From the NCBI GenBank assembly GCA_021784835.1, contig JAJYHI010000049.1, positions 1-58,171 on the forward strand: 58,171 bases of DNA, read 5' to 3'. The position numbers and the translations under genes were made by a program. Source of the stretch: a bacterium. GTDB lineage: Bacteria; SZUA-79; Acidulodesulfobacterales; Acidulodesulfobacteraceae. The notes under the pieces were generated by a model that was given only the letters and a program-made list of their open reading frames with translations, had not been told where the DNA came from and made no database searches. Each line of letters begins with the position of its first letter. Positions within the stretch are counted from its first letter, which is position 1. Of the stretch, positions 25,813-50,672 are shown one piece after another.

Positions 25813-27147
25813 TCATTTTTTCACATACCCGTCATAGTTTCTTTTAATCTCCGCTAAACCGTCGCCGCCGAATTTTTTGAGGAAAAAATAGCATATGGAA
25901 AAAGCGAGGGCGGATTCGACGACGATTGACGCCGCAGGAACGGCGCATACGTCAGACCTTTCGAGAAAGGCTTTTTTTGCTTCGCCCGTATTTAAATCTA
26001 CGGTATCGAGATAAGGTTTCATTAAAGTGGGTATGGGCTTCATCGCGCAGGTTACGCTTATTATTTCTCCGTTCGACATTCCGCCTTCTATGCCGCCGGC
26101 ATTGCCGGTTTTTCTGTAAAAGCCGCCGCCAACTTTGAACAAAGGGGTCTGATTTGAAATCAGACCCCTTTGTTCTTTATTATCGCTATCGCCGTTATCG
26201 TTATAATAAATCGAATCGTGGCATTCCGAACCTTTCAGATAAGCCGATTTTACTCCGGCGCCGATTTCGACGCTCTTAATTGCCTGTATGCTCATTACGG
26301 ACATCGATATATGGGCGTCCAATTTCTCGTCCCACTGCGTAAAACTGCCCAGACCTACGGGTACGCCCTTCGCCTTGGCGGTTATAATCCCGCCTGCGGT
26401 ATCTCCTTCCGCTTTCATCTTGTCGATAAATGCCTTTGTCTTTTCTTCATGTTCGGGATAAGGCATGCGGAGTTCGGAATTTTCGATATTTTGCATAATC
26501 GTTTCGTCGAAAAGATTGGCGTCTGATGAAAAAAAAGCGCCGCAATTCGATTCCGGCATCTTTTTTTCGCTTGGCGCCTTTTCCTCCGACCCATTTTCTG
26601 CCTGCCTTTCTTTTCCCAATGCAGAAATTTGAGCCGCGTCGATTCCCGCCCCGCCGATGCTCAGAACCGCAGAAGCAAACTCGATGCCGAAATTTTTCAA
26701 GAATATCTGGCAGACAGCCCCGACAGCAACCCTCGACGCGGTTTCTCTTGCGCTCGAACGCTCCAAAACATTTCTTATATCGTCTAATCCAAATTTTATT
26801 GAGCCGGCAAAATCGGCATGCCCCGGTCTCGGAGTATGGATTTTGCTTTCTTCTTGAACGGGTTTAAAGGCGTCCATCCTGTCCCGCCAGTTTTCGTAAT
26901 CCTTATTTTTTATAAAAAACGAAATAGGCGAGCCCGTCGTTAAACCGCCCCTGACACCTGATAAAAACTCTATTTTATCCGTTTCTATCTTCTGCCTTGC
27001 GCCCCTTCCGTATCCCGACTGCCTGAGCCTCAGCTTTTCGTTTATAAAATCTTCGTTTATTTTAACGCCCGCTGGAAAGTTGTCTATTATAGTAACGAGC
27101 CCCTTGCCGTGCGACTCGCCCGCAGTCAAAAATCTGAGCATTTTCAT
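25813..27147 (-). CDS. aroC: Chorismate synthase with two insertions
   Basis: A 444-aa enzyme making chorismate from EPSP with reduced FMN. RFLTAGESHGKGL at residues 5-17, RQSGYGRGARQKIE, RPGHADFAGSIKFG and ERSSARETASR are standard AroC motifs, and NAGGIEGGMSNG (349-360) and RSDVCAVPAASIV follow. Typical length is 350-390 aa. The surplus lies in two places: residues about 178-208 (Glu/Lys/Ser-rich) and about 312-343, where residues 325-337 are encoded by a perfect palindrome (26137-26175). Both inserts keep the frame. RBS AAGGAG is 8 nt upstream of the ATG. Confidence 0.94.
   Translation of the reverse strand: MKMLRFLTAGESHGKGLVTIIDNFPAGVKINEDFINEKLRLRQSGYGRGARQKIETDKIEFLSGVRGGLTTGSPISFFIKNKDYENWRDRMDAFKPVQEESKIHTPRPGHADFAGSIKFGLDDIRNVLERSSARETASRVAVGAVCQIFLKNFGIEFASAVLSIGGAGIDAAQISALGKERQAENGSEEKAPSEKKMPESNCGAFFSSDANLFDETIMQNIENSELRMPYPEHEEKTKAFIDKMKAEGDTAGGIITAKAKGVPVGLGSFTQWDEKLDAHISMSVMSIQAIKSVEIGAGVKSAYLKGSECHDSIYYNDNGDSDNKEQRGLISNQTPLFKVGGGFYRKTGNAGGIEGGMSNGEIISVTCAMKPIPTLMKPYLDTVDLNTGEAKKAFLERSDVCAVPAASIVVESALAFSICYFFLKKFGGDGLAEIKRNYDGYVKK
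26137..26175. repeat. 39-bp palindromic element inside aroC
   Basis: A 19-bp arm, GAACAAAGGGGTCTGATTT at 26137-26155, one spacer base (26156) and the perfectly complementary arm at 26157-26175. On the aroC strand it codes for EQRGLISNQTPLF without a stop. It falls within a loop that is absent from typical AroC proteins. The sequence has the look of a mobile palindromic repeat similar in idea to Rickettsia palindromic elements. Confidence 0.8.
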
Positions 27148-43906: not shown

Positions 43907-46387
43907 TCAAATATTTGCCTGTTCAACGGCGCCCGCTATGGATTCCGGCTTCTGGCTGACGGAAGATTCCAACGTTTGCTTGATATATTCTATATCGTAA
44001 GCCTCTATTACGTCTCCGGTTTTAATATCGTTAAAGTTTTCCAGAAGTATACCGCATTCGAAATTTGACTGGACTTCCTTGACGTCTTCCTTGAATCTTT
44101 TCAATGAATTTATATGACCGCTGTATATAACGACGTTGTCCCTTAAAAGCCTGACGTTCGACGACCTTTTAATAAAGCCGTTCAGCACGAAAGAGCCGGC
44201 GACCGTTCCGGACTTTGGAACGGTGAAGACGTTTCTAACTTCGGCCTTGCCAGTAATTTTTTCCTTTTCTATGGGGGCAAGCAGTCCTTCCATTGCATCT
44301 TTAATATCCTTAACGGCGTCGTAAATTACGCTGTAATATCTTATCTCTATTCCTTCGCTTTCGCTGAGAGACATGGCCTTGGATTCCGGACGCACGTTAA
44401 AAGCGATAATAATAGAGTTGGTGGCTTTCGCAAGCATTACGTCGCTTTCGGTAATCGCGGAAGCTCCGCTGTGTATAATGTTGACTTTTACTTTTGGATT
44501 GGAAAGCTTTTTAAAAGACTGTATCAGCGCCTCCATGGAACCGTAAACGTCTGTCTTGACTATCAGCTTGAGCTCTTTGACGTCTCCGGATTTTATCTTT
44601 GCGTATAATCCTTCGAGCGTCAATCTGGCGGTAGAGCTGAGCTCGGTTTCCCTGTGCTTTAACTGCCTTTCCAAGCTTATTCTTTTTGCCTCTTTTTCGT
44701 CTTTTAGGGCAATAAAATTGTCGCCGGGTGAAGAAACCCCCTCCAGTCCGAATATTTCTACCGGAATAGAAGGGCCCGCCGATTCTATCTTGTTTCCCAT
44801 GTAATCTACCATTGCCCTTACCTTGACGTAATATAATCCGCATACCGCGCTGTCGTTTACTTTTAAAGTGCCGCTTTGTATCAGGACGGTAGCTACCGGA
44901 CCGCGGCCTTTATCGAGTTTAGCTTCGATGACCGTGCCTCTCGCCGGTTTATTTGGATTTGCTTTTAATTCTAAAATCTCGGCCTGAAGTATAATAAGTT
45001 CGAGAAGTTCTTTTATCCCCTGACCCGTTTTGGCCGAAACTGCCGCATAAAGAGTAGTGCCGCCGAGTTCTTCCGAAACGAGGCCGTATTCTAATAAGCT
45101 GTTTTTAATTTTCGACGGTTCGGCGCCCGGTTTGTCTATTTTATTTATCGCAACGATAATGGGAACGTTTGCGGCTTTGGCGTGATTAATGGCTTCTACG
45201 GTTTGCGGCATAACACCGTCGTCGGCGGCGACTACAAGGACCACTATGTCCGTTATGCCCGCTCCTCTCGCCCTCATTTCCGTAAACGCTTCGTGGCCGG
45301 GGGTATCGAGAAAAGTAATCATCGAATCGTCCGTCTTAACGCTGTAAGCCCCTATATGCTGAGTAATGCCTCCGGCTTCGTTGGAAGTTACGTTTGTTTT
45401 TCTTATGGCATCGAGCAGAGATGTTTTGCCGTGGTCCACATGACCCATAACCGTGACTACCGGCGCTCTCGGCACGAGAGATTCGGGAGAGTCGGCGGCT
45501 TCTTCGAGCGCGATGGTTTCGTTAAAACTGACGTTCTCGACGGTATATCCGTATTCCGAAGAGATAAGAGACGCGGCATCTATATCTATTACGCGGTTTA
45601 TAGCGGCAATAATGCCTACGTCCATTAATTTTTTTATAACCTCGGACGCCTTTACGCCCAGAGCCTGCGATAATTCGTTTACCGTAATTCCGCTGCTTAT
45701 TTTAATTACCTTTTTCGACGCCCTTTTTTCCGGTATTATCTGCTGAATGCGCGGCGCCTGCTTACGCGCCTTGCCTCCAAACTTTCTTTTATGTTTCCTG
45801 AAAATAAAGGATTCGCCTTCTTCGGAAGTATCGATAAATTTTTCGTTCTTATTAAAAAATTTTACGGGCGGGCCTTTCTTTATATCTTCTTTTTTTACCG
45901 GTTTTTTATGCAGGGATGATTCCGCCGCTTCCTCGGCTATATTCTTTACTTTTAGCGTATCCATGGTCTTTATTACGCTTAAAACGTCTTTTGTGCCGAC
46001 TGCCGGAGCGGCTGTTTTTTTAGTTTCGCCTTTTTTGAAACCCTTTTTCTGAGGATAGGCATTTTCTTTTTCTGCGGCCGGTTCCGCCGCCGAGGATTTT
46101 TTAACGCCTTTAACTTCCAAAACTAAAGCCGTACCTCTGGAGGCTAATACTTCGGAAGTTTCTTTGGCTGCCTCGCGTACTGCCGGTTTAACCTGCGCGG
46201 AAGGTTCGTTAGGCGAGGGGATATTTGCCGCCTGCGGGCTTTCCTGCGCCAAAGCGCCTGCGGCTGCTGCCTTATTTTCTTCAACGGGCTCAGCCTTGCT
46301 GGCTCTTCTTCTTATGACGCCTTTTGAAACCCTTCTCTCTTCCATTTTTTTATCTTCCCTGTTTCCTATATCCTGATTATCCGTCAT
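43907..46387 (-). CDS. infB: Translation initiation factor IF-2
   Basis: An 826-aa GTPase that positions initiator tRNA. An N-terminal low-complexity Ala/Lys/Glu-rich part (1-230) precedes the IF2_N domain ([34 protein letters not shown]). The G domain has [34 protein letters not shown] and [10 protein letters not shown], then domains II-IV. 17 nt after nusA. Confidence 0.97.
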
Positions 46388-48286: not shown

Positions 48287-48317
48287 AAAACAAAAAAAGC
48301 GGGTCTAGCCCACTTTT
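48287..48317 (-). terminator. Intrinsic terminator abutting rimP start
   Basis: On the minus strand AAAAGTGGG-CTAGA-CCCGCTTTT followed by TTTGTTTT and the ATG. The stem has one G-U pair and a 5-nt loop. Placed both after truA and in the rimP leader, it can end the pil-truA message and also attenuate rimP-nusA. Confidence 0.8.
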
Positions 48318-48353
48318 ATATAAAAAATCCGGATATGAAATCTTTTTTATATA
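48317..48353 (-). promoter_or_regulatory. Second leader hairpin upstream of terminator
   Basis: An 11-bp AT-rich inverted repeat (48317-48327 with 48343-48353) with TCCGGA inside the loop. It sits directly 5' of the terminator stem in the rimP leader and shares one base with it. It may influence folding of the terminator. Confidence 0.5.
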
Positions 48354-48365
48354 CCAATATATAAA

Positions 48366-48394
48366 ATTATAAATAATATTTAATAAAATATCAA
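48366..48394 (-). promoter_or_regulatory. rimP operon promoter
   Basis: On the minus strand TTGATA (48389-48394), 17 bp, TATAAT (48366-48371). The -35 overlaps the truA stop region. It would start transcription near 48359 and give a leader of about 73 nt holding both hairpins. Confidence 0.65.
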
Positions 48395-49158
48395 CAATAA
48401 ATTTTATGCCTGTAACTTACGGAGTATAAAAAAAGCCCGCAGGGAGGCGCGCAAACCGAACCGTAAGCTCCTTTTTCGCCGGCCAGCATGCGCTTTATAT
48501 TATTTAAGCTCATTTTGCCGGCGCCGCACAGAACTATGCCGCCGGCTATCCTTCTTACCATATGCCTTAAGAAACCCTCTCCCTCGACAAAGATATCGAA
48601 TCCGTAATTCTTCCGGCAAATTTTTATTCCCATTACGACTCTGAAATAGTTTTCGGAATTTTTTCCTTTTTCTTTTTTCGTAAAGTTAAAGAAATTGTTT
48701 CTGCCGGAAAAAATAGCAGCCGATTCGCTCATAATATCAAAATTTAATTCTTCTTTGACGAACCACGAACCGTCGGATAATATAGGGCTTTTATATCCGG
48801 AATTAATTTTATAAAGGTATGTTTTGGACAGTGCGTCGTGCGTAGCGTGAAAGGAATCGTGGACTATTTCTAAATTTTTTACGGATATATCCGAAGGAAG
48901 GATGCCGTTAAGAGAAATTTTAAACCTGTCCAAATCGTAATAGAACGGAAGCCGGAAATTAGCGACCTGGTTTAACGCATGGACTCCTGCATCGGTCCTC
49001 CCCGATACCGATAATTTCGTTCCGCATTTCGTTGCGGCGTATATGGCCTTTAAGATTTCGTCTTCTATGGTTTTGTTCTTTTTAACGCTATTATCGTTCT
49101 GCGCCTGCCAGCCGTTATAATTGGTCCCGCAATATTCCAAAACTATTAAATAATTCAT
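48391..49158 (-). CDS. truA: tRNA pseudouridine(38-40) synthase
   Basis: A 255-aa enzyme. LEYCGTNYNGWQAQ at the N-terminus, then LSVSGRTDAGVHALNQVANF with catalytic Asp56, and EGEGFLRHMVRRIAGGIVLCGAGKM near the end. Its ATG overlaps the stop of the response regulator by 4 nt, so it is translationally coupled to the pil operon, though it has no pilus role. Confidence 0.96.
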   Translation of the reverse strand: MNYLIVLEYCGTNYNGWQAQNDNSVKKNKTIEDEILKAIYAATKCGTKLSVSGRTDAGVHALNQVANFRLPFYYDLDRFKISLNGILPSDISVKNLEIVHDSFHATHDALSKTYLYKINSGYKSPILSDGSWFVKEELNFDIMSESAAIFSGRNNFFNFTKKEKGKNSENYFRVVMGIKICRKNYGFDIFVEGEGFLRHMVRRIAGGIVLCGAGKMSLNNIKRMLAGEKGAYGSVCAPPCGLFLYSVSYRHKIYC

Positions 49159-50672
49159 CTTTCATTTTTATTATTATTTTTAGACAATATATATCTTAAG
49201 GACCTCAAAGACAAGCCAAGGCTCCTTGCGGCTTCGACCCTGGAATTTTCTTTATCAGCCCTGCCGGCGGCTATGCTTCTTTCTATGTTTTTTATAAAAT
49301 CCGGCAGGGATAACCCCCGCTCTCTGTTTATGGCGTCGAAGATGCCCGCTATCTTCGATAAATAATCGCCGCCGCCTGCCGCGGAGGAACCTGTTCCGTT
49401 TTCTTTCTCCGCCGCATATGGCGCGGCTTTTCTTTCGATTTTATTTTCTCTAAAAACATAATCCGGCAGACATTCAGCTCCGATTTCTTTTGTCCCGCCG
49501 GATGCGCTATCGCCTCCGCAGTAGATGCATGCTCTTTCTACGATGTTTTCGAGCTCCCTCACGTTGCCGGAATAGCTGTAATTCATAAGGACCGCCAGAG
49601 CTTGGGGAGAAATAGAATTTATATTTTTCGAAAATTTTTTAATAAAATAAGACGCGAGGGCGGAAATATCTTCTTTATGCTCCCTTAAGGAAGGCATTCT
49701 AATATTTACGGCATTTAACCTATAATATAAGTCCTCCCTAAATTTGCCTTCGGATATCAGCTTCTCTAAATCTTTGTTCGTGGCGGCGATTATCTTTATC
49801 ATTACGGATTCTTCCTTGTTGGAACCTAATTTTCTATAAACTTTTTCCTGCAGGACCCTTAAGAGCTTCACCTGAACCTGCAAAGGCAAATCCCCTATTT
49901 CGTCCAGAAAAAGAACGCCCCCGTCCGCATATTTTATCATGCCCATTTTATCTTTTTCCGCTCCCGTGAAGGCTCCTCTTAAATAGCCGAACAATTCGCT
50001 TTCGACGAGGTTTTCCGGAATTGCGGCAAGATTAACTGGAACAAACGGGATATCCGTCCGTCCGGATAAATTTTTGGAATAAATCTCGTGAATCAATCTC
50101 GCCGCCAATTCTTTACCCGTGCCGGATTCCCCGGTAATAAGAACCGTGCCGGAGCTTAAAGAAACCCGCGATATCTCGTTCAAAACATTCCTTACGGCGT
50201 TGGATTCCCCTATTATTCCTCCCGCCGCGGGACGCGCCGCTTTAAGGCTGCTTAACTCCTCGTAAACGGAAAAATAATCCAGCGCCCGCTTTATAATCAG
50301 CTTAAACTCCTCGTTGTCGAACGGCTTGGGTATGTAATCGTAGGCGCCCGCTTTTACGGCCTCTATGCCGGTTTTGACGTCCGAATATGCCGTCATCAAT
50401 ATAACCGGAATATATTTAGAGTTTAAATCCGCTCTTTCGACTTTAAAATATTTTAAAAAATCTATGCCGGAAGATTCCGGCATTTTTACGTCGGAAATAA
50501 TCAGGCAGAAAGAATTTTCGCCGATAAGTTTTTTTGCGTAGTTTACGCTTTCGGCGGTAAAAATATCGTATCCTTCGAATTTAAGAAGTATTTTAATAGA
50601 TTCGAGTATAGATTTTTCGTCGTCTATTATTAATATTTTTCTTTTATCTTTATCGTCCATATTCAAATTCAC
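49155..50672 (-). CDS. pilR: Sigma-54-dependent response regulator (PilR-like)
   Basis: A 505-aa NtrC-family activator. Receiver domain with phospho-acceptor Asp61 (SDVKMPESSG), a AAA+ domain with Walker A GESGTGKE (181-188), GAFTGA sigma-54 contact (233-238) and GGVLFLDEIGDLPLQVQVKLLRVLQEKVYRKLG, and a C-terminal Fis-type HTH (SRVEAARSLGLSLRSLRYIL). Position between pilS and truA with pilB/T/C upstream argues for PilR. Its target, likely pilA, is outside the window. Confidence 0.88.
   Translation of the reverse strand: MNLNMDDKDKRKILIIDDEKSILESIKILLKFEGYDIFTAESVNYAKKLIGENSFCLIISDVKMPESSGIDFLKYFKVERADLNSKYIPVILMTAYSDVKTGIEAVKAGAYDYIPKPFDNEEFKLIIKRALDYFSVYEELSSLKAARPAAGGIIGESNAVRNVLNEISRVSLSSGTVLITGESGTGKELAARLIHEIYSKNLSGRTDIPFVPVNLAAIPENLVESELFGYLRGAFTGAEKDKMGMIKYADGGVLFLDEIGDLPLQVQVKLLRVLQEKVYRKLGSNKEESVMIKIIAATNKDLEKLISEGKFREDLYYRLNAVNIRMPSLREHKEDISALASYFIKKFSKNINSISPQALAVLMNYSYSGNVRELENIVERACIYCGGDSASGGTKEIGAECLPDYVFRENKIERKAAPYAAEKENGTGSSAAGGGDYLSKIAGIFDAINRERGLSLPDFIKNIERSIAAGRADKENSRVEAARSLGLSLRSLRYILSKNNNKNER

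Follow-up and report, generated by a model that had tools for sequence, protein, structure and literature searches.

A conserved candidate attenuator of the rimP-leader class that reaches the rimP start codon in the Acidulodesulfobacteraceae

The closest described system is the rimP-leader of Naville and Gautheret (2010; PMC2965389), which in the sections of that paper drawn on here is termed the most ubiquitous transcription attenuator and is presented as a short conserved terminator with no larger element, with NusA as the best candidate binder and feedback by RimP also raised as a possibility. The same sections state that nusA and infB are present in almost all bacteria, and leave open which factor reads the conserved stem of the leader. 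In Bacillus subtilis, NusA regulates its own synthesis by stimulating termination in its 5′ leader, according to the portion used here of a 2025 review (PMC12288461, citing Mondal 2016). For the rimP-nusA-infB operon of Streptococcus agalactiae, the cited part of PMC4448216 gives termination 31 nt after the transcription start by RNA-seq and proposes a feedback by NusA. According to the excerpted literature on Escherichia coli, rimP is preceded by two terminators and NusA takes part in the control of its own operon, and a Rho mutant gave decreased rather than increased values for fusions to the rimP 5′ UTR and ORF (extract of PMC7815308). As characterized in an extract of PMC8745188, NusA-dependent terminators have a weak hairpin and/or an interrupted distal U-tract.

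The window, by which we mean the whole stretch of 58,171 nucleotides analyzed here, carries rimP, nusA and infB downstream of truA, and the features of the rimP leader and the surrounding genes are shown in Table 1. The initial annotation had placed a TTGATA-N17-TATAAT promoter just upstream of rimP, followed by a GC hairpin and a U-tract ending at the ATG with no Shine-Dalgarno sequence, and all of these were recovered. The promoter has 11 of 12 consensus matches and ranks at the top of the eight promoter-like sites found in a 3-kb scan, while the number of such sites is itself not above chance (8 against a shuffle mean of 7.2). The stop codon of truA (TGA, 48393-48391) sits within the -35 hexamer, and the start point of the leader, at about 48359, was deduced from the position of the -10 box. 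The GC hairpin has a folding energy of -10.2 kcal/mol (z -3.7), and none of 200 shuffles was equally stable, while the whole leader from 48359 to 48278 folds modestly (z -1.33, with 24 of 200 shuffles as good). The ATG of rimP (48286-48284) adjoins the U-tract, lying 0 nt from its end and 8 nt from the foot of the 9-bp stem. In addition to the Pfam domains given in Table 1, the NCBIfam RimP models hit the encoded protein with a best value of 4.6e-29, yet below their cut-offs.

Table 1. Features of the rimP leader and of the neighbouring genes in the window.
Feature	Position	Strand	Details
truA, upstream gene	48391..49158	-	Ends within the -35 box; TIGR00071 above cut-off
Promoter TTGATA-17-TATAAT	48366..48394	-	-35 TTGATA 48394-48389; 17-nt spacer; -10 TATAAT 48371-48366
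5′ part of leader, inferred start (~48359) to hairpin	48318..48359	-	A/U-rich; weak hairpin possible at ~48353-48317
Putative attenuator/terminator hairpin	48295..48317	-	AAAAGUGGG-CUAGA-CCCGCUUUU; 9 bp with an internal U-G pair
U-tract U7-G-U4	48287..48298	-	Reaches the start codon; first four U overlap the stem foot
rimP, 161 aa	47801..48286	-	ATG straight after the U-tract; Pfam RimP_N and RimP C-terminal domain above cut-off
nusA, 431 aa	46405..47700	-	GTG start; strong Shine-Dalgarno (duplex -8.2); TIGR01953 385 bits, above cut-off
infB (IF-2), next same-strand gene	43907..46387	-	TIGR00487 814 bits, above cut-off

No Shine-Dalgarno sequence precedes rimP, as the best duplex there has +0.5 kcal/mol against -8.2 kcal/mol for nusA. 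A clear Shine-Dalgarno is also missing at three of eight other starts tested in the window, namely those of infB, truA and a response regulator as called, so its absence is not unique to rimP. The response regulator (49155-50672), which has no clear Shine-Dalgarno at its called start, may begin at a later codon. As an alternative start of rimP, an in-frame GTG that several relatives have within the hairpin was weighed and discarded: in the window the hairpin loop holds an in-frame TAG, and the loci of genus g2 carry the GTG 26 nt before the ATG and out of frame.

The family was sampled with 30 genomes, the nearest of which shares 83% of the sampled words with the window, and a rimP match was obtained in 28 of them, the other two genomes being 84% and 86% complete. 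The initial annotation had suggested an alignment of rimP leaders from relatives as a check for conserved hairpins, and the comparison yielded the GC hairpin at every one of the 28 loci, together with the same promoter hexamers and 17-nt spacer; this layout, with identical hexamers and spacer, stands in all 29 leaders aligned. The U-rich tract of the family is interrupted once by G or A and touches the ATG at 28 of 28 loci, with nine of its 12 columns invariant across the 29 leaders, and the start-to-ATG length inferred for these leaders ranges from 60 to 91 nt. The gene order is also maintained, with nusA downstream of rimP in 28/28 loci and truA directly upstream in 27/28. By a length threshold, the truA stop codon was called within the -35 box at 25 of 28 loci; among the remaining three, L024 has truA in frame and truncated where the contig ends, L021 has it shifted, and L010, where truA was not found upstream, retains both promoter and hairpin. 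The initial annotation had also read the hairpin as the end of the pil-truA operon, and its position behind truA fits such a role.

Substantial variation in conservation was observed along the leader. The mean identity between genera was 1.00 for the promoter hexamers, 0.98 for the stem arms, 0.89 for the U-tract and 0.86 for the hairpin including its loop, while the promoter spacer reached 0.64 and the 5′ leader 0.44; for comparison, the value was 0.31 at fourfold sites of rimP and 0.59 for the RimP protein. The pattern GTGGGN{3,7}CCCRCTTTTT gave exactly one match per genome, just before rimP, in 28 of the 30 family genomes, and no match in the two genomes where rimP was not found; read backwards, the same pattern gave one match across all 30. 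This conservation is the strongest evidence against a chance occurrence of the promoter-hairpin layout. In 28 of 29 family leaders a U-G pair stands next to GGG, by which the DNA palindrome is broken and the RNA helix kept, and this favours an RNA helix and disfavours a DNA operator.

A claim of two hairpins in the leader held in part, since the GC hairpin is general in the family while the upstream A/U one is not. An upstream hairpin of at least six pairs was predicted in 22 of the 29 leaders, and it was not always the same one, as it folds differently in L016, L017, L020 and L025; none was predicted in the other seven (L021-L024 and L026-L028, which comprise L021 and six of the seven loci of genus g2). 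No antiterminator common to all genera was obtained from either the pairing of the 5′ leader with the two stem arms or the whole-leader folds of the 29 leaders; in the pairing test the leaders of L006 and L007 were shortened, with a second TATAAT taken as the -10 box, and the whole-leader folds use the right one.

Outside the family, a RimP match was present in 227 of 292 genomes, 20 of which belong to the family, leaving 207, and the leaders of the best-scoring 110 of these 207, several of them from the same family, were sampled with a search that requires the GGG/CCC core. Among them, 57 carry a GGG..CCC hairpin followed by a U-tract, mostly of the form AGUGGG...CCC(A/G)CU, and the other 53 failed the hairpin criterion. 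The shuffle controls gave a mean of 0.64 with single-base shuffling and 0-4 over 30 dinucleotide rounds, while the opposite strand of the 110 leaders gave 13 matches, an excess that near-perfect palindromes among the hairpins would be expected to produce. Outside the core, the 5′ arm of the 57 leaders holds A in 50, G in 55 and U in 49. The pair adjoining the core is U-A in 37 leaders, U-G in 12, C-G in 7 and A-U in 1, and the fourth pair out is A-U in 22, G-C in 21 and G-U in 7, with the remainder unpaired or of another kind; these changes on both sides of the pairs support an RNA helix. The 5′ arm mostly keeps its A, G and U, while the 3′ partner of that U is A or G. This asymmetry suggests where mutations should be placed, though some of it could arise from wobble pairing alone; since the U-G wobble accounts for a part, the asymmetry is not read as proving a binder. 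A control with other GGG..CCC terminators gave 14 sites, eight of which have AGT...(A/G)CT, leaving six; visual inspection put these eight down to palindromic leaders or pattern sites read on the other strand. The control drops all pattern sites, with or without RimP behind them, and therefore cannot prove exclusivity of the motif to rimP, a point on which only the family scan counts.

A scan of named species with GTGGGN{3,6}CCCRCTTTTTTTN{0,5}ATG returned at least 116 stretches (L161-L276), all of them selected by the motif itself, and RimP was sought downstream of the sites with an HMM built in this analysis. RimP was detected downstream at 74 of the 118 pattern sites among the matches listed, which is not a genome-wide rate (53 of 81 sites in the first 80 loci among these matches), and was not detected at the other 44 listed sites, six of which had less than 300 nt left in the locus. 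Across bacteria the motif thus appears enriched at rimP, with exclusivity supported within the family only. The 74 listed sites with RimP comprise eight from the family and 66 others, and the ATG abutting the U-tract is the likely RimP start at 21 of them (8/8 family, 13/66 others); with a stricter offset of at most four residues, an abutting RimP start is seen at 10 of the 66 listed non-family sites. At the other 53 of the 74 listed sites, such as L206 and L238, the ATG after the U-tract is not the RimP start by the frame and offset criterion; RimP begins further downstream there, and the abutting ATG may be the start of a short leader ORF or a chance occurrence. Two sites from Anaerolineales (L192 and L216) have the same layout, CCCACTTTTTTTGTTTTATG, with no RimP detected downstream.

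Taken together, a leader attenuator before rimP-nusA-infB, as the initial annotation had proposed, is well supported as a prediction, with anatomy, family conservation and the consulted rimP-leader literature (PMC2965389) in agreement, and NusA is a plausible sensor by analogy. We consider NusA-stimulated attenuation at the rimP-leader of this lineage to be the best explanation and a fairly probable one. RNA polymerase would start about 73 nt before rimP at the strong promoter and transcribe the short A/U-rich leader, which offers no conserved antiterminator, and the hairpin and U-tract would then end a fraction of the transcripts just before the ATG. The efficiency of termination would be set by a protein, NusA being the likeliest, that acts on the hairpin as it emerges, so that plentiful NusA would give more termination and less rimP-nusA-infB, and scarce NusA would give read-through. 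On the read-through mRNA, the hairpin would lie in the landing zone of the ribosome, and the translation of rimP may be damped, which is the more speculative part of the proposal. A bolder reading, in which a single protein, either NusA or RimP, recognizes AGUGGG in the nascent RNA of different bacterial phyla and the terminator of this lineage is fused to the start codon, one element thereby controlling both termination and translation initiation, is doubtful.

The conservation of the stem may instead serve another binder, such as RimP or a ribosomal protein. An attenuator of this kind, whose hairpin is bound by the ribosome or by an operon product other than NusA (candidates being RimP, IF-2 or a ribosomal protein) while NusA only assists, would account for a stem conserved in sequence beyond pairing, as expected of a specific binder, and RimP acts on 30S assembly and has its feedback mentioned in the consulted sections of PMC2965389; however, NusA is the published favourite in those same sections, and NusA control of termination at nusA is reported for B. 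subtilis (cited portion of PMC12288461) and argued for S. agalactiae (cited part of PMC4448216), so we hold this reading to be unlikely. Just behind it in probability, and unlikely as well, comes a plain constitutive terminator of the pil-truA operon that lets a constant fraction of transcription pass into rimP and has no sensor. The classical terminator shape of the hairpin and the near-constant place of truA directly upstream are what such a terminator would predict, but the hairpin is preceded by the rimP promoter, so the rimP operon's own transcripts, all those begun there, must cross the terminator. The stem identity is also far above the need of simple pairing, similar hairpins stand before rimP in more than half of the sampled non-family leaders, and the locus in which truA was not found upstream keeps promoter and hairpin nonetheless.

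Two further readings take the element out of attenuation altogether. Promoter and terminator frame a unit that could be a small RNA gene of about 60-90 nt, from which rimP is read through, and the inferred start-to-ATG lengths agree with such a size; but the 5′ leader, where the function of a small RNA would reside, is the poorly conserved part, and we regard this as very improbable. The least credible has a repressor binding to palindromic DNA downstream of the promoter. Many of the sampled leaders do have a near-palindrome in AAAGTGGG...CCCACTTT, but the T opposite G next to GGG in nearly all family leaders breaks the palindrome and keeps the RNA pair. With NusA-stimulated attenuation as the preferred reading, the lineage offers a minimal rimP-leader of about 73 nt, with one general hairpin, a strong promoter and an almost frozen stem, which would be easy to test in vitro, and this leader sharpens the question of which protein reads the stem and its AGUGGG.

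Some other observations were made in the window and its lineage. Classical intrinsic terminators look scarce in the lineage, with 13 strict matches in 400 kb (G017:C2 1-400000, L277-L296), some of which overlap or are the same site on both strands, and five shuffles gave 1-6; the window (1-58171) has three strict intrinsic terminators, and 20 shuffles gave 0-4. A perfect palindrome, GGGGTCTGATTTGAAATCAGACCCC, was found at 26144-26168 inside the chorismate synthase ORF (25813-27147, minus strand), which has 444 aa against 327 profile positions, and the palindrome is possibly a small in-frame insert.

The Rfam family RF01770 (rimP, 102 positions) is named for the same gene context as the element of the window. 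No match at or above its gathering score (47 bits) was obtained in the window, and none of 61 genomes, 30 of them from the family, gave one above the cut-off in searches with E up to 10; weaker RF01770 matches were read as chance, as they also occur in 11 of 14 control genomes, archaea included. Around the site (E up to 10), five weak matches below the cut-off were seen, RF01770 not among them, and the Rfam matches from both the whole window and this surrounding region, which lie below the cut-off only, were rejected.

Compared with the rimP-leader as described in the consulted sections of PMC2965389, the element of the window likewise stands before rimP of a rimP-nusA-infB operon and has a terminator stem with a GGG...CCC core, a G-rich 5′ arm, a C-rich 3′ arm, a U-stretch and no visible antiterminator. 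The extended core AGUGGG...CCC(A/G)CU goes beyond the description in those sections and was measured here. The inner pair by the core is c...g in the rimP-leader, given in lower case as it is not invariant, whereas in the window C stands opposite A; at the same position the family relatives have U with A, G, U or C, and C-G occurs in 23 of the 57 non-family leaders. Like the nusA leader of B. subtilis, to which it is likened by the description in the cited portion of the review, the element is a predicted intrinsic terminator that sits in a nusA operon leader, with nusA downstream. With the S. agalactiae operon it would share an intrinsic terminator near the transcription start and a short and a long transcript from one start, while the termination point given in that part of PMC4448216 (31 nt) differs from the approximately 62-73 nt from the predicted start in the window. 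Set beside the NusA-dependent terminators of the PMC8745188 extract, and with no threshold applied, the stem has -10.2 kcal/mol with a U-G pair, and the U-tract is broken by one G. The initial annotation had spoken of an uncommon design, a description that does not hold for an element called the most ubiquitous attenuator in the consulted sections of PMC2965389, and whose abutting start recurs at non-family sites among the matches listed. The gene distance of the rimP-leader in those sections is 4-130 nt, compared with 0 nt from the end of the U-tract and 8 nt from the stem foot in the window. The element of the window belongs to the already described and very widespread rimP-leader class, and it is unusual mainly in the zero distance between U-tract and ATG, which is itself not unique.
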